In this document: piece after piece, positions 27,054-36,576 of the stretch
How the letters are laid out: each line of letters opens with the position of its first letter
Numbering within the stretch: position 1 is the first letter of the stretch
DNA from: a virus
DNA length: 50,667 nt
IMG/VR virus record: IMGVR_UViG_3300037808_001107
Location: 1-50,667 of that record
Direction: 5' to 3' (one strand)
Translations under genes and position numbers: made by a program
Notes under the pieces: generated by a model
Seen by the model: only the letters and a program-made list of their open reading frames with translations
What the model was told of the DNA's origin: nothing
The model's database searches: none

Positions 27054-28643
27054 TTATCCTTTTATTAACCAAGAATATTGTTCATAATCTTCTTTTGCTT
27101 TAAACATTTTCTCATCTAGTGATTCTTTTCTATTATATCCCTGCATTCCTGGGATTGTTGTATTAATTTTTGTATTAACCCTAACCATAGAATTCAAACA
27201 CGCCTTTTTATATTCCAATTCTCTTTTATTGACGCTCAAAGCTGTATCCCTCACCCAACACCCAATAGCTAATGCCATAACAAGGTCATCATTATATCCC
27301 CTCATTGATTGAGGTTTGCCATTGTGCCAAATAAAAGTTCGCAACTCATTCGAGAAACGAACCGAATATACTTTAATTAGTTTGTTTCTAATGAATTCTT
27401 CTAATTTTGCGACGATAAGAGGTCGGGTTTTTAAAGATGTCGTAAATCCGGGGACAGCAGAGTTATTCGTTGCTCCCTGCTGACTATCTACATATTCATG
27501 AGTACTCTTTATCGAATAATACAAATTCGGATATTGCAACTCAATTAATTTTTCTAAAACGGAAATACCAATACCAACATTTTCAACAACCAACAGGCAA
27601 TTGCCATATTCTTTGCCAGCCTGCAATAAAACGTTGGAATACATATCCAAACTAGGCTTTCCTTGGTATTCAGCTACAACTTCCATCGTATCCAGCTTGA
27701 TGATATGAAAAACAGAATAGTCTGCTCCATCCCCTCTTGCAACGTCGGCAACAAGGAGATAAGTGCATTCGGGAGTATATTCTTCCCAAATCCACATATT
27801 TCTGTCAAAACTTGTCCTGTATTTAGGATCCTTAACGTTGCTCTCCAACCACATAATATCATCGGGATGAATAACAGTCTCGCCCGATGTATTGAAGTTA
27901 CATTCTAGTTCTTGCGCGATCTCCCTTCTTGACATATTCCTAGTTTCTTTCTCAAACCACTCCATATTTCTATCCGGATGGATATTCCAATTTAGCATAA
28001 CTGGATGAAAGTCATTGGACCCTTCAACTGACTCGCTATATGTCTTGTGAAACCAGTTTCCAACGCCATTTGGAGTCGAAAGCGCGATCACTCGGCCACC
28101 AGTTGAGATTGTAGGATATAAACCTGCCCAAAGCTCATCAAGATTATCAACATGGGCGGCCTCATCAATGACGAGCAAAGAAAGAGCTTCTGAACGACCT
28201 GCATCGCCAGACGTTGAGGCTGCTTGAATTTGAGAACCATTTGAAAGTTCGAAAGAAGCTCGATTATCAATTGAAATTTCTGCGATAAGAAGAAACTCGG
28301 GCACATTCTTCATAATAGCTTTCACCTTTTTAACTAAGTTGGCGGCCGTCTTGAATTTTGTTGCCATAACAAGAATATTCTTGTCGCGGTGAAAGAGCAT
28401 CATCCAAACGATGTAGGCACCTGCAATTGTTGAGATGCCCAACTGTCTAGCTTTGAGGATTATATTAAATCGGTAATCATTAAAATCGGATAAAAGGTCA
28501 GTCTGATAATCGTAAGTCTTAAACGAAATGAGACCATGGATTGGGTGTGAAATTCTCGCATAATTATTCACAAAGTAATTCGGATCTTTTCCGCACTTTA
28601 GTATCTCAGCTACTATTTCCTTTTTTGATAGTGTAGGTGACAT
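27054..28643 (-). CDS. gp17: Large terminase subunit, T4 gp17-like
   Basis: This 529-residue packaging motor has both domains. The ATPase domain shows a deviant Walker A, KARQLGIST (64-72), Walker B LLVIDEAAHV (D160, E161 catalytic) and the coupling motif ALSTPNGVGNWF. The nuclease domain has the acidic residues in LLVADVARGDGADYS, LVVENVGIG and GYNDDLVMALA, the usual RNase-H-like set. T4 gp17 has 610 residues. It cuts concatemeric DNA and pumps it through the portal, encoded next. No clear small terminase is recognised among the upstream genes. The start follows a weak ribosome site. Confidence 0.93.
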   Translation of the reverse strand: MSPTLSKKEIVAEILKCGKDPNYFVNNYARISHPIHGLISFKTYDYQTDLLSDFNDYRFNIILKARQLGISTIAGAYIVWMMLFHRDKNILVMATKFKTAANLVKKVKAIMKNVPEFLLIAEISIDNRASFELSNGSQIQAASTSGDAGRSEALSLLVIDEAAHVDNLDELWAGLYPTISTGGRVIALSTPNGVGNWFHKTYSESVEGSNDFHPVMLNWNIHPDRNMEWFEKETRNMSRREIAQELECNFNTSGETVIHPDDIMWLESNVKDPKYRTSFDRNMWIWEEYTPECTYLLVADVARGDGADYSVFHIIKLDTMEVVAEYQGKPSLDMYSNVLLQAGKEYGNCLLVVENVGIGISVLEKLIELQYPNLYYSIKSTHEYVDSQQGATNNSAVPGFTTSLKTRPLIVAKLEEFIRNKLIKVYSVRFSNELRTFIWHNGKPQSMRGYNDDLVMALAIGCWVRDTALSVNKRELEYKKACLNSMVRVNTKINTTIPGMQGYNRKESLDEKMFKAKEDYEQYSWLIKG

Positions 28644-31325: not shown

Positions 31326-34300
31326 CTATTGTTCAATAAAGGCATAACCATTTTTCTTGTCAATTATAATCTGCATATCAACACAATCTTTAAGGCTGTC
31401 CAAATGAGAGATAAGAAGGACTGTCTTGAAGTAAGATCTAATCAAGTCTAGGATGTCAACAAACCCTTGCATATTATCTTCATCCAATGCAGTTCCTGGC
31501 TCATCAAGGATGAAGAAGTCCGACTTTGGAAGGGAAGATATACTCAATAGTGCTAAACGAATGGCCATTGCGGCGATTGTTTTCTCTGCTCCAGACCCCA
31601 TTTCTAGCGGTCGAGGTTCATGGCGTGGATGTTTGATGAAAATATCAAGTCTTTTACCATCATCCTCGAAGAAAACCTCAAAATCAACGATATTTGCCAG
31701 AATTTTGGCAATTTCGTCATTGATTACAGGTAATTTACGCTTAATAACATCATAGGCTATCCCATTTGGGTGCATACATCGTAAATAAAGATCATAAGAA
31801 GAGAATTCTTCCTGTAAATCAAGGTATTCGTTCCTCTGAACTATCAAATTATTAACTTTTTGCTCTAAAGAACCAACAGACTTATATATATTCAGGATAG
31901 ATGATGTACACTTTTCATGATTACTTTTAAAATTCTGTGATTTAATCCTTAAACCCCTTAGTTTCTGTGATAGATTCCCCAGATTTTCAATAATTTCTTT
32001 ATTTAACTCATATTCTGAGACCTTTTCTTCTGATGCTTCGATTTCAGACATCAAATTTTTAATGATACTGGCATTTTTCTCTATCTTAAGATCATAATTT
32101 GTTATTTTGTTGGACAATGCATTCTTTTTATTAACAATTTCATTGTATTTTCCTATATGATCTTCAACCTCATCGGGGTTAATCTCCTCGATGTCGTCGT
32201 TCAGGTCATCAATCTGCCCCGAGAGATTCTCGGCCTCTTTTTCGTTAAGTGGAATTGTAGCTTTAGAGACATATGCGTCCTTAATGAATTTACATTTGGG
32301 ATATGCGGTACCACAAGGAATCCCCCGAAGCAATTGGAGCTTGTTTTGATTTCTTTTAAGCTCATCTTCTTCCACACTCAATGAGTTTTCTAAAATTACT
32401 AGCTGATTCAGCAACTCATGAACCCTTTCCTGCTTTTCAAAGAGGGCTTTCTTATCAAATTCTCCCAAAAAAAGAAGGATCTTTCGATACTTCTCTTTAT
32501 CTGCATTTCTTTCTACATAAAATTCACTATTTTGATCCGAAACAGAGATTAATTGGTTCTTTTTGTCATTTAATTCTTGTTGAACTTTCATAACATCTAT
32601 GATTTCGGCAGGAATTGACTTTATCTTTTCATTTATTTCCCCTATTTCTTCATTGCATTGAGAAATATTAAAATTGATAGTCTCGCAGCGCTGTTTTTTC
32701 TTTTCAAGATCATTGTTTGCGCCTTCAAGCTCTTCTTGTGCAGATAAAATATCACTATTAAAGTCTCTTCCTTCTGATTTTCTTAAAGCGCCTTTTGTAT
32801 CGGACGCATCCTCCTTGGCTAATCGAAATTTATGTTCAAAAAATTCCAAATCAAGAAACTTGGCAAGAATCTCCTTTCTCTTTGTTGAGCCTTCTTTAAT
32901 AAAGGTAAGAGAATCGAGTTGGGAGGCCATCGATGAATAAAGAAAATCTTCTAATGTTCCAAAAACCTTTCTAATGTTCTTGTCAGTTTGATTTCTCGTC
33001 AAACCATTAAGGCTCTCCATATCTCCAAGCGCCGGATCGTATACTGTAAACTCTACATTTGTTTTTGCTTCCTGAGTTACAGACCCTTTTAGTTTTCGAG
33101 TATACTTTTCTGAATTTCTCTCAATATAATAATCTTTATCTCCAATAGAGATTTTAACTTTACCGGTGCCGACTTCTTTATTTTGATTTATAATATTTAG
33201 GTTTTTTCTGTCGTTTTTTGATGTCGAATTGAACACTGTATATAAAATTGAATCAATAATGCTAGACTTTCCAGAAAAGTTCTTTCCAAAGATGCCGACA
33301 ATCCCCTCTAAGTTATCAAAATTGATGCTATTTCCTTCTGCATAATTGAATAAATTGTTCCATTCAATAGAGCGAAGCCTCCAATTGATGTTTCGAGATA
33401 CCTCTTCGTTCTCCTCAGCGATCTTGTTGTATTTTAAATTGAGATTAATGACCCTTTGCATCAATTCGTCGTCAACCTCAAAATCTTTCAAGTACTCTTT
33501 GATGAGTTGCTGTTGAATTTGAATATTCCTAAGGTCTTCGGTCTCCAATCCATCTGTAATATTCTGGATGTCTCCTCTTTCTCCTGTTGCTCGGTTCAAA
33601 AAGGTAATACTCTCTGGCTTAAACTTTCGTTTTGCCACTTCTATTGCTTTTTTCATAACATCAAGAGGTAAGTTATTATTTGAAACCAGTCTAAGTCTGG
33701 CAGATTGAGGTATATTCTTTGCTGCACCTCTCGGCATCTTGCCTTTTGGCGTTAACTCGATGGTTATGAAGGGTCTAGGGTTTTTAATCTCAAAATGTTG
33801 GCAAGTAAAGTTTTCTTTACTTTGAATATCCCATAGTAAAAATCCCTTGTCGTTTGTTTCTCCGTGATTTTGCTGGATTGTGGATCCGGGATAGCGGATT
33901 TTACCTTCGGCATCAAGTCTTTGGTCAGTTTTGTGAATATCTCCCAATAAACCATAATCGTGTCCTTCAAAAATCTCAATAGGATGCTCTCCATGAGTCA
34001 TAACCCAGCCCGTGTCAGTGACAACACCGGAAACCGATCCGTGATAAAGAGCAATATTAATTTTGCTCGGATCCGAAGGTTTAACCCACCCTTCTTCATC
34101 AAAAACAGACAAAATATGTAGCGTTACAGTCGCCGATAGGGGCATTTCGCCTGATTTCTTAAGCAAGTGTAGGTTTGGGTGAGATAAAGCGTCTACGATA
34201 GGTGTCAGAGCGTCCTGACGACTACTATTGCGAAGGTTTCCATCGTGATTCCCCAAAATGACGTAAGTTGGTGCAATATGGGCGAGATTGCTCAAAAAAT

Positions 34301-34484
34301 CAGAGCACATTTCGACAAATTCTGGACTAATTTGTGTTTTTGTGTGAGCAATATCACCGCAATGAATGATATAATCTGGTTTTTCCTTTCTTAAAATATT
34401 GTATAGCTCGTTGAAAACAATCCTATATTCATAATGATACTTTAAATTTTTAATATGTGTGTCAGCAATGTGGGCAATCCTCAA
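31326..34484 (-). CDS. Fused SbcD-SbcC (Mre11-Rad50) nuclease-ATPase
   Basis: One frame of 1052 residues holds both partners that are normally separate (T4 gp47 and gp46). Residues 1-330 are a metallophosphoesterase: IADTH (D8, H10), HCGDIAH (D44), LGNHDG (N79, H80), YHGS (H148) and LGDIHK (H184). Residues 370-1052 are the ATPase: Walker A FGKNFSGKSS near 399-408, coils either side of CGTAYPKC (724-731), a MGSGAEKTIAAMA signature near 962-975 and Walker B FFILDEPGTALD (D994, E995). It probably trims DNA ends for recombination-dependent replication. Start is TTG after GGAGAG. The usual CxxC zinc hook is replaced by C-x6-C. Fusion is seen directly; activity is inferred. Confidence 0.9.
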   Translation of the reverse strand: MRIAHIADTHIKNLKYHYEYRIVFNELYNILRKEKPDYIIHCGDIAHTKTQISPEFVEMCSDFLSNLAHIAPTYVILGNHDGNLRNSSRQDALTPIVDALSHPNLHLLKKSGEMPLSATVTLHILSVFDEEGWVKPSDPSKINIALYHGSVSGVVTDTGWVMTHGEHPIEIFEGHDYGLLGDIHKTDQRLDAEGKIRYPGSTIQQNHGETNDKGFLLWDIQSKENFTCQHFEIKNPRPFITIELTPKGKMPRGAAKNIPQSARLRLVSNNNLPLDVMKKAIEVAKRKFKPESITFLNRATGERGDIQNITDGLETEDLRNIQIQQQLIKEYLKDFEVDDELMQRVINLNLKYNKIAEENEEVSRNINWRLRSIEWNNLFNYAEGNSINFDNLEGIVGIFGKNFSGKSSIIDSILYTVFNSTSKNDRKNLNIINQNKEVGTGKVKISIGDKDYYIERNSEKYTRKLKGSVTQEAKTNVEFTVYDPALGDMESLNGLTRNQTDKNIRKVFGTLEDFLYSSMASQLDSLTFIKEGSTKRKEILAKFLDLEFFEHKFRLAKEDASDTKGALRKSEGRDFNSDILSAQEELEGANNDLEKKKQRCETINFNISQCNEEIGEINEKIKSIPAEIIDVMKVQQELNDKKNQLISVSDQNSEFYVERNADKEKYRKILLFLGEFDKKALFEKQERVHELLNQLVILENSLSVEEDELKRNQNKLQLLRGIPCGTAYPKCKFIKDAYVSKATIPLNEKEAENLSGQIDDLNDDIEEINPDEVEDHIGKYNEIVNKKNALSNKITNYDLKIEKNASIIKNLMSEIEASEEKVSEYELNKEIIENLGNLSQKLRGLRIKSQNFKSNHEKCTSSILNIYKSVGSLEQKVNNLIVQRNEYLDLQEEFSSYDLYLRCMHPNGIAYDVIKRKLPVINDEIAKILANIVDFEVFFEDDGKRLDIFIKHPRHEPRPLEMGSGAEKTIAAMAIRLALLSISSLPKSDFFILDEPGTALDEDNMQGFVDILDLIRSYFKTVLLISHLDSLKDCVDMQIIIDKKNGYAFIEQ

Positions 34485-34493
34485 ACTTCTCTC

Positions 34494-35417
34494 CTATAAA
34501 TTAGAAATTGCCGAAACCAAGGAATCATCTTCCCTAATAAACGGCGCGTTCTGACTTAAATTTTTAACTTCTTCTTTAGACATATCACCTATGTCTCTCT
34601 CATCATCATACTGTAATTCACGGATCTCGATTCCGTATTTCAAAAACAATCTTTTGATGTTTTCAGCCTTGTATTTTGCATCTGGGTCTAATGCCAACAA
34701 AACTGGTGTGTCGTTTTGAACTATTCTTCTGAATATTCTCGATGTTTCTCTAATTGTTGATCCCAAAATAGGAATAGCGTTCTCGGCTTTAACGGCATCG
34801 AACGCGCCTTCAACAATTGTTACCTCCTTATCAAAATCAACGTATAATTCATTGAATATGATATCTCGACTAACTGGGGGATTTAAATATCTTTTGTAGT
34901 TGTCAGTAAATGTTCTCGCAATAAAATAGTTAAGGTCACCGTTTTCGTTAAAGGATGGGATAATGATCCTTCCCTGATATGGACCCTCGGAACAAAAGCC
35001 CATCTTCCATTTTAAGATGTCTTTTTTATCAATTCCGCGATCTTTAAGATATTTTAGGGGCGTCTGGAACCTCTTATTGCCGCACAAACTCTTAAAACTT
35101 GGTGGCATTTGTAATATCTGTTCAAAATTTTCTTTCTCGTCTTCTTCGAAGAGGCTATCAAACCCATTTAAATCTGTTTTTTCTCCCGAAAGAGCTTTCC
35201 AAGTTTCTCGTTGTTTAAAAGATCCAAATCGACGTATTAATCGATAGAGACTTCGACCTTTTGCATCACAAACCCAACATTTATAAACTCCGCGTTTAAT
35301 GTTGACAGAAAATTTTCTTTTATGATGTTTACAGTAGGGGCATTGAAAAAGATGTTCATCATTTGACCCAGAATAAGATCCAAGAATGTCTGATAATAGA
35401 GAGATTTTTTCTTTCAT
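34494..35417 (-). CDS. DNA primase with CHC2 zinc finger and Toprim domain
   Basis: I choose the ATG that gives 307 residues starting MKEKISLLSDILGSYSG; the longer frame overlaps the upstream gene and lacks a ribosome site. The zinc finger is CPYC (26-29), HH (31-32) and CWVC (47-50). The Toprim fold follows with VTIVEGAFDAVKAEN (catalytic Glu) and LLALDPDAK (DxD). No helicase domain is present, so it is a DnaG-type primase that would work with a separate helicase. It makes RNA primers for lagging-strand synthesis. A perfect sigma-70 promoter ends just before the ATG, suggesting an early, leaderless message that continues into the SbcDC gene. Confidence 0.85.
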   Translation of the reverse strand: MKEKISLLSDILGSYSGSNDEHLFQCPYCKHHKRKFSVNIKRGVYKCWVCDAKGRSLYRLIRRFGSFKQRETWKALSGEKTDLNGFDSLFEEDEKENFEQILQMPPSFKSLCGNKRFQTPLKYLKDRGIDKKDILKWKMGFCSEGPYQGRIIIPSFNENGDLNYFIARTFTDNYKRYLNPPVSRDIIFNELYVDFDKEVTIVEGAFDAVKAENAIPILGSTIRETSRIFRRIVQNDTPVLLALDPDAKYKAENIKRLFLKYGIEIRELQYDDERDIGDMSKEEVKNLSQNAPFIREDDSLVSAISNL

Positions 35418-35423
35418 ATTCTT

Positions 35424-35452
35424 ATTATAACATCTGACATCCTCTCTGTCAA
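35424..35452 (-). promoter_or_regulatory. Perfect sigma-70 promoter for the primase
   Basis: TTGACA (35452-35447), a 17-base spacer and TATAAT (35429-35424) match the bacterial consensus at all twelve positions with the best spacing. It lies wholly in the 52-base gap between two genes. Counting from -7 puts +1 at 35417, the A of the primase ATG, so the transcript would have no leader. Confidence 0.85.
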
Positions 35453-35469
35453 GAACTATTTTAGTTTTT

Positions 35470-36057
35470 TTATTCTGGCTCTTCGACAGCGTATCCGGTT
35501 TTTCCAAATAAATTTTTATTATTGACAAACTTCTTTATCATAATATCAATATCTGGTATGGGGGCATCAGGATTGGTTTTTATTTGTGTTTCGACATCTT
35601 TGAACATTTTTTCCATAAATTCTTTTTCTAAACCATCATCAACTAATTTTTGAAGACCGTCATCGAGATTGAATGCATCTAAGACTGGATTTGCTTTTGT
35701 AACCTCGTCTTCCTCCTGCCCATAAGTTTTATAAATCCCCCTTACTCTATTTACGATGTTTTTTGCGGCGACGATGCTTCCAACGACTGGTACGAATGAG
35801 GCCACGAGGTCCATCACATCGCTGCCCAAATCTTTTGCCAACTGATTTCGTTTTTCTCGGCTAAGTTCGCCAGCCCTTACTGCTTGTGCGATTTTCAGCG
35901 CTTGATCCAACTGTCTCCAAGTTAATTTTCCGGACTTCATTTGTTCTCTTGATCGGGTGCGCTCATCTTCCTGATCCTGTCTCCCTGCTTCCTCTTTCCA
36001 TCCTTCATTTATTTCAAAATTTCTCCAATTTTCCATAATAAGCTTCATTTTAGACAT
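35470..36057 (-). CDS. Internal-protein candidate with T4-like capsid-targeting start
   Basis: This 195-residue protein opens MSKMKLIMENWRNFEINEGW. It resembles the T4 internal-protein targeting peptide (MKTYQEFIAE then A) in its MK start, aromatic-x-x-F core, and an I-N-E-G site that fits the prohead-protease rule after residue 18. The middle is charged and helical (REQMKSGKLTWRQLDQALKI). A hydrophobic helical stretch (VMDLVASFVPVVGSIVAA) lies near 90-107. It could be packaged with the DNA and ejected into the host. No enzyme motif is visible. A late motif 20 bases upstream of the ATG agrees with a virion role. Confidence 0.5.
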   Translation of the reverse strand: MSKMKLIMENWRNFEINEGWKEEAGRQDQEDERTRSREQMKSGKLTWRQLDQALKIAQAVRAGELSREKRNQLAKDLGSDVMDLVASFVPVVGSIVAAKNIVNRVRGIYKTYGQEEDEVTKANPVLDAFNLDDGLQKLVDDGLEKEFMEKMFKDVETQIKTNPDAPIPDIDIMIKKFVNNKNLFGKTGYAVEEPE

Positions 36058-36063
36058 TTTAGA

Positions 36064-36576
36064 CTATTTCCCTTGCAATAAATAGTGTCCAGCGCGGGCA
36101 ACAACAATTGCATCTGCAATATCGTAGCAATATTTTTGAACATTTCCAAATCTGGTATAAATAATCTCAAATTCTTTACTTTCAATGAAGTGCTCCATAA
36201 CAACTTCTTTTGCCTTCTTGCCTCGGGCTATTTTTATGCCACATTTAGAGCGAGCACTGATCGGACTTATATAGTTCGGTTCCATATCATATATATTATA
36301 ACACATCCAAGATATAATGCCATTAAATCGTTGAAGAATTGACATAGTTTTGGCAGTTGATCCACCTCTTCGGAAAAACATGAGAGCTTGTTCTATAAAA
36401 ACGTGTTTTACATCGTACTTTTCTTTAACCTCTTTTAAAGTTGTTTCTACTTTTCTGGCTTTTTCGAAGAATGAACCAGTCTTGCGTAAATCAATATAAT
36501 CTGCATAAACTATTTTGTCATTTTCGAGGATACAGACGCCGATAATGCTTGTACTCACATCAAGTCCCAGAATCAT
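36064..36576 (-). CDS. RuvC-type Holliday junction resolvase
   Basis: The 170-residue protein has the RNase-H-like acidic set: LGLDVSTSIIGV (D6), HVFIEQALMFF (E62) and YDIADAIVVA (D152, D155), plus a SAKTMSILQRFNG-like helix typical of RuvC relatives in phages. Length matches E. coli RuvC (173). T4 uses a different enzyme (gp49) to clear branched DNA before packaging; here RuvC may do that task. The ATG overlaps the stop of the virion-type gene upstream as TAATG, so a late-expressed resolvase is suggested, in keeping with a packaging-time role. Confidence 0.87.
   Translation of the reverse strand: MILGLDVSTSIIGVCILENDKIVYADYIDLRKTGSFFEKARKVETTLKEVKEKYDVKHVFIEQALMFFRRGGSTAKTMSILQRFNGIISWMCYNIYDMEPNYISPISARSKCGIKIARGKKAKEVVMEHFIESKEFEIIYTRFGNVQKYCYDIADAIVVARAGHYLLQGK
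36078..36086 (-). promoter_or_regulatory. Late-promoter candidate ACTATTTAT inside the resolvase end
   Basis: Exact copy located in the last codons of the RuvC-like gene, 20 bases before the ATG of the 195-residue protein. Being inside a coding end shows the element is kept even where it must also encode His-Tyr-Leu. Confidence 0.52.

Follow-up and report, generated by a model that had tools for sequence, protein, structure and literature searches.

An Mre11-Rad50 fusion of the Mimivirus R555 kind, probably a single-chain end-resecting enzyme, in T4-related marine phages

T4 and bacteria usually encode the Mre11-type nuclease and the Rad50-type ATPase in separate adjacent genes (PMC3175470), and the question raised by the locus described here is whether a single viral gene truly joins the two and, if so, what the resulting protein does. 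The window, that is, the whole stretch of DNA analysed, is a virus record of 50,667 bases, a fragment of a larger genome. The original prediction placed a nuclease-ATPase fusion in one uninterrupted frame at 31326..34484, and these coordinates proved exact; its orientation, given without correction for strand, has to be amended, the gene lying on the minus strand whereas the plus strand across 31326-34484 contains many stops. The translation runs for 1052 residues free of stops, from a TTG start at 34484 to a stop codon ending at 31326, and an AGGAG ribosome-binding site (34491..34495, minus strand) is located 6 nt ahead of the TTG, where it overlaps the stop codon of the primase gene. Both halves are recognized within this one protein: the Pfam matches are Metallophos at residues 1-156 (4e-15), AAA_23 at residues 373-614 (2e-9) and SMC_N (5e-15), the ATPase half belongs to the SbcC family by PHROG comparison (4e-46), and the NCBIfam models sbcc and sbcd are both matched, each under the curated cut-off.

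The metallophosphoesterase nuclease domain occupies residues 1-236 (33777..34484, minus strand), as delimited by the Pfam match, conservation, PDB alignments and a structural model. A full set of metallophosphoesterase motifs had been predicted for it, and this stands for the canonical metal ligands D8, H10, D44, N79, H80, H148 and H184 but not for motif V, which reads GDIH in place of the GHxH of canonical Mre11/SbcD that is present in the solved SbcD/Mre11 structures. In an alignment that includes SbcD/Mre11 from PDB, Asp182 falls where P. furiosus Mre11 has His206. All aligned copies have Asp at this place, D182 and H47 are invariant in 75 aligned rows, and the catalytic residues are invariant or near-invariant among the 75 diverse homologues (H10 in at least 90%). 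With Asp in motif V, the metal preference could be changed or the exonuclease activity reduced.

The remainder of the chain was delineated with an AlphaFold model built from an alignment of 75 proteins of the window and the loci (mean pLDDT 84, with a pTM of 0.51 that makes the relative placement of the parts unreliable). The order of elements in the model is nuclease, cap, helix-loop-helix, ATPase, coil, hook, coil, ATPase, all encoded on the minus strand. The equivalent of the Mre11 capping domain spans residues 237-297 (33594..33776; boundary read off the modeled secondary structure) and is followed by a disordered loop at residues 300-314 and by a modeled helix-loop-helix (residues 321-335 and 339-358; 33411..33524) at the position of Mre11's Rad50-binding domain; this position, together with the published analysis of R555 (PMC3175470), suggests that it acts as that domain. 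A short linker, about 8 residues long (359-366; 33387..33410) and seen in the model and the alignment, joins the nuclease half to the ATPase half. The latter consists of the Rad50 N-lobe with Walker A GKNFSGKS at 400-407 (residues 367-546; 32847..33386; AAA_23 match and model), the ascending coiled coil (547-717; 32334..32846; model), the hook CGTAYPKC, of CX6C type (718-731; 32292..32333; alignment and model), the descending coiled coil (732-904; 31773..32291; model) and the Rad50 C-lobe with the signature GSGAEK, Walker B ILDEP, D-loop ALDE and H1027 (905-1052; 31329..31772; SMC_N match and alignments). The two coils are about 170 residues each in the model. The key residues of Walker A, the signature, the Walker B/D-loop segment (ILDEPGTALDE) and the switch His1027 are invariant or nearly so, such that the fusion carries the Walker A, signature, Walker B, D-loop and switch His that characterize Rad50/SbcC. 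Walker A, coils, signature motif and Walker B had all been predicted, and all are present, the coils in the model and the others as sequence motifs. Solved Mre11-Rad50 and SbcCD complexes are among the PDB matches for both halves. Given that the helix-loop-helix and a short linker are retained, the compact end-processing enzyme of fixed stoichiometry envisaged in the original prediction is plausible.

That the frame is continuous outside this one assembly is apparent from its relatives. A second contig encodes the same protein with 100% identity across the whole gene, the identity of the proteins from further contigs is 95, 81, 67 and as low as 40%, and in a second, profile-based scan at least 545 of the 600 listed candidates encode relatives. 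The whole fusion is present in a single frame in 103 fetched loci, mostly from different metagenomes; most other fetched loci are cut by contig ends, one copy is masked, and only two full-span copies are interrupted internally, both by endonuclease genes. No plasmid-borne relatives of the clade were found above 8% coverage. A single polypeptide joins an Mre11-type nuclease to a Rad50-type ATPase, and 103 whole-frame loci place this beyond chance.

Two other readings of the frame were weighed. Adjacent sbcD and sbcC genes, the usual arrangement in T4 and bacteria, could have been merged by a missed stop or frameshift in sequencing or assembly, and a stop or frameshift around the linker in raw reads had been named as the observation that would betray such a merger. 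The independent contigs are instead open across the linker, one of them identical throughout the gene, the linker columns align well, and an assembly join is thereby ruled out, which leaves this explanation with a negligible probability. An open frame could, on the other hand, contain an internal start, so that a separate Rad50-type subunit is made and free ATPase is present alongside the fusion. TTG-ATG codons at window residues 341-342, inside the helix-loop-helix, and a purine-rich stretch ahead of some start codon within residues 300-390 in 33 of the 103 rows are compatible with such a start; yet the putative starts are scattered, with no conserved position near the linker, and many would truncate the helix-loop-helix. 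We therefore reject separate production of the ATPase from an internal start and consider its coexistence with the fusion improbable.

The two interrupted copies (L037:5977-9954 and L003:7944-12166) are split at the identical site, after the GDIHK of motif V and before an x-GS segment, by unrelated inserts, a LAGLIDADG endonuclease ORF in L037 and a TnsA-like one in L003, and their N-terminal parts share a similar extra acidic tail ending in Y[LI]xxGW. An intron was considered and rejected, there being no Rfam intron match in either copy, and inspection by eye revealed no intein-like junction. With the nuclease half broken in these two copies, the enzyme need not always be a single unbroken chain, unless the inserts are spliced out. 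In two other loci (L113:902-5074 and L097:5977-9359), the last ~60 codons of the fusion, from Walker B to the C-terminus, are duplicated just downstream, and in L113 the two copies flank an ORF resembling a GIY-YIG homing endonuclease. The masked copy (L119, 64% identical and masked in part) comes from CP070664.1, the 'chromosome' of a WOR-3 bacterium MAG, and is probably phage sequence joined into a bacterial assembly.

The original prediction held that the two proteins are separate subunits elsewhere, and in this respect it fails. In 2011, Yoshida, Claverie and Ogata described the Mre11/Rad50 fusion R555 of Mimivirus along with twelve others, found in bacteria, on plasmids, in eukaryotes and in Bacillus phage 0305phi8-36, and reported a very high abundance of R555-like genes in marine metagenomes, with enrichment in the viral fractions (PMC3175470). 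GOS scaffolds with R555 homologues also bear phage genes, for example, primases, and many were proposed to be possibly phage-derived (PMC3175470). In R555, Asp replaces Mre11 His206 and His replaces the third Asp of the SbcD motif, the R555-type linker was estimated at nine to twelve residues, and the kept helix-loop-helix and short linker were argued to make the arrangement seen in T. maritima attainable for a fused chain (PMC3175470). Our search of the literature, the coverage of which was incomplete, turned up no later papers on phage SbcCD fusions.

Measured against the published description of R555, the window protein is of the same kind: an Mre11/SbcD metallophosphoesterase at the N-terminus and, in the same frame, a Rad50/SbcC ATPase at the C-terminus, the His in GDxxH (H47), the Asp at the His206 position (D182) and, in the model, the cap, the helices 321-335 and 339-358 and the short linker at about 359-366. 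It differs in length (1052 against 1351 aa), in residing in the genome of a bacterial virus and in the hook, which is mostly CX6C in the clade. As in the GOS scaffolds with R555 homologues, a phage primase is encoded nearby, and the window is a direct example of the proposed phage source of marine R555-like genes. Structural matches over most of the length, ~1200-1400 alignment columns, were obtained with fusions of ~1000-1400 residues from Tupanvirus (the best), Harvfovirus, Catovirus, Tetraselmis virus 1 and the Tenacibaculum phages pT24/PTm1, which are only 14-24% identical, longer and mostly from eukaryotic giant viruses. The same fusion is encoded close behind the DNA primase gene of an isolated phage, Microcystis phage Mel-JY01 (WWT39521.1), where the annotation reads simply 'AAA domain containing protein'. 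This one protein matches the PHROGs of SbcC (4e-43) and of SbcD (1e-32); it is 31% identical to the window protein and differs in having a CX2C hook.

The window encodes the major head protein, portal, prohead protease, terminase, tail sheath, tail tube and baseplate, and is a fragment of the genome of a T4-related (gp23/gp20/TerL) marine myophage. By capsid and terminase, the closest cultured phages are Flavobacterium phage Immuto and Microcystis phage Mel-JY01; a 484-kb uncultured megaphage is also near by these proteins, and Rhodothermus phage RM378 by capsid. A DnaG-type DNA primase (34494..35528, minus strand; phrog_47, 1e-45) is encoded directly upstream of the fusion, an adjacency that recurs in 72 of the 92 loci with enough upstream DNA. 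A RuvC-like Holliday junction resolvase (36064..36576, minus strand; phrog_159, 2e-15) and, downstream, the terminase large subunit (27054..28643, minus strand; phrog_2, 3e-49) belong to the same conserved block, in which the recurring order is orf1173, orf300, orf348, orf389, RuvC-like, primase, fusion, orf66, orf133, orf161, orf127, orf171, terL, portal.

In eight large relatives (159-204 kb), the fusion is the sole strong SbcC/Rad50-type match and the best Metallophos match of each genome, and a RecA-type gene is present in all eight as well as in Mel-JY01 and the 484-kb phage; no RecA or polymerase gene was seen within the 50,667-base window, which is a fragment. The fusion-bearing megaphage L004 (LR756501.1, 735 kb) holds further Rad50-like matches, including a second, stronger one at 670999-672753 in a frame with four stops. 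The sister phage Immuto has no SbcC match, and a PD-(D/E)XK exonuclease is encoded directly after its primase (L127:15369-16148), possibly a replacement for the fusion in a slot that holds an end-resecting nuclease. A separate sbcD-sbcC pair beside the Immuto primase, which would have represented the ancestral state, was looked for and rejected: the genes after the primase encode this exonuclease and proteins with no SbcC or SbcD match.

Elsewhere in the window, the segment 39804-50637 contains four ORFs, three exceeding 1000 aa and one of 344 aa, that match neither Pfam nor PHROG profiles, at least orf1173 being syntenic in relatives. The segment 12082-21596 has a GC content of 0.43-0.53, compared with ~0.37 around it, and large ORFs with weak matches to chlorovirus glycoprotein repeats and BclA/TNF-like proteins, which by these matches are likely to encode receptor-binding or fibre proteins.

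A CX2C hook at the coil apex is standard in Rad50/SbcC, and in this respect the window protein departs from the pattern, with CX6C instead. Among 104 rows, 80 have CX6C, 14 have CX2C, 8 have CX7C and 2 have neither such pair, the CX6C consensus being CGxxFPxC. In a FastTree phylogeny from which the hook columns were excluded, CX6C was gained or lost at least 11 times even when only well-supported branches are counted. Because the distant members (Mel-JY01, L004, L121 and L124) carry CX2C, the distribution suggests that CX6C is the derived state, with the root of the tree uncertain. When just the hook segment was used to search a phage collection, the single match was weak and came from an uncultured phage of 485 kb; there is thus no sign that the CX6C motif is common in cultured phages, a result to which such a very short query lends little power. 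We tentatively suspect that the Rad50 hook of this clade is an evolvable dimerization element, in which the near-universal CX2C gave way to CGxxFPxC and locally to CX7C or to no pair. If so, this alternative hook geometry is perhaps tolerated as the covalent link to Mre11 already secures dimerization at the head end. We have met no earlier description of the CX6C spacing, of its repeated changes or of the same-site endonuclease splits in two relatives.

T4 gp46/47 and SbcCD provide an established basis for ATP-gated end resection. The same two enzymatic halves, presumably with the same job, make up T4 gp46/gp47, T5 D12/D13 and bacterial SbcCD, which differ from the fusion in being two separate subunits, and by homology with gp46/47 and SbcCD, ATP-gated resection of DNA ends is the most likely function of the fusion. 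We conclude with good confidence that the gene encodes a single-chain phage version of the Mre11-Rad50 (SbcCD; T4 gp47-gp46) complex, a viral fusion like Mimivirus R555, whose probable task is to resect DNA ends in the service of recombination-dependent replication and repair. Two chains would dimerize by way of their nuclease domains, their ATPase heads and the hook, forming the usual M2R2 clamp with a built-in 1:1 stoichiometry, and the covalent link would bear on this architecture. ATP binding would close the heads and gate the nuclease; recognition of DNA ends or hairpins would be followed by trimming of the ends to 3' single strands, which the phage recombinase would take into recombination-dependent replication, concatemer formation and break repair ahead of packaging. 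The RecA-type protein and the RuvC-like resolvase of the phage may assist the fusion enzyme in these steps.

The Asp in motif V, found at the His206 position of each aligned copy, might alternatively have left the nuclease half catalytically weak or dead, with the protein serving mainly as an ATP-driven DNA tether. This appears unlikely: the other metal ligands are invariant or near-invariant (H10 in at least 90%), which argues for catalysis, Asp likewise binds Mn, and the identical His-to-Asp change was reported for Mimivirus R555 (PMC3175470). A role in defense or against plasmids, as an SMC-like effector (Lamassu LmuB or similar) rather than a replication or recombination enzyme, is very improbable. 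Rad50-like heads are common to both kinds of protein, and the Rad50 half matches the PADLOC profile LmuB (3e-24), but the same half matches phage SbcC better (4e-46), the nuclease half is Mre11/SbcD, and the fusion lies beside the primase and the resolvase in the conserved order of the phage core, whereas defense genes are usually sporadic. With the weaker profile match and the wrong gene context, we rejected a defense system and retain the end-resecting complex as the preferred reading.

A small, single-chain Mre11-Rad50 of fixed stoichiometry with short coils would be a convenient whole-machine model for biochemistry and cryo-EM, and its variable hook offers a natural test of zinc hook function. 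The Mre11-Rad50 fusion is very common in such marine phages, and these findings help to settle the home of the abundant marine R555-like fusion genes, namely T4-related phage genomes of ~160-200 kb, in which they occupy a fixed slot between primase and terminase.
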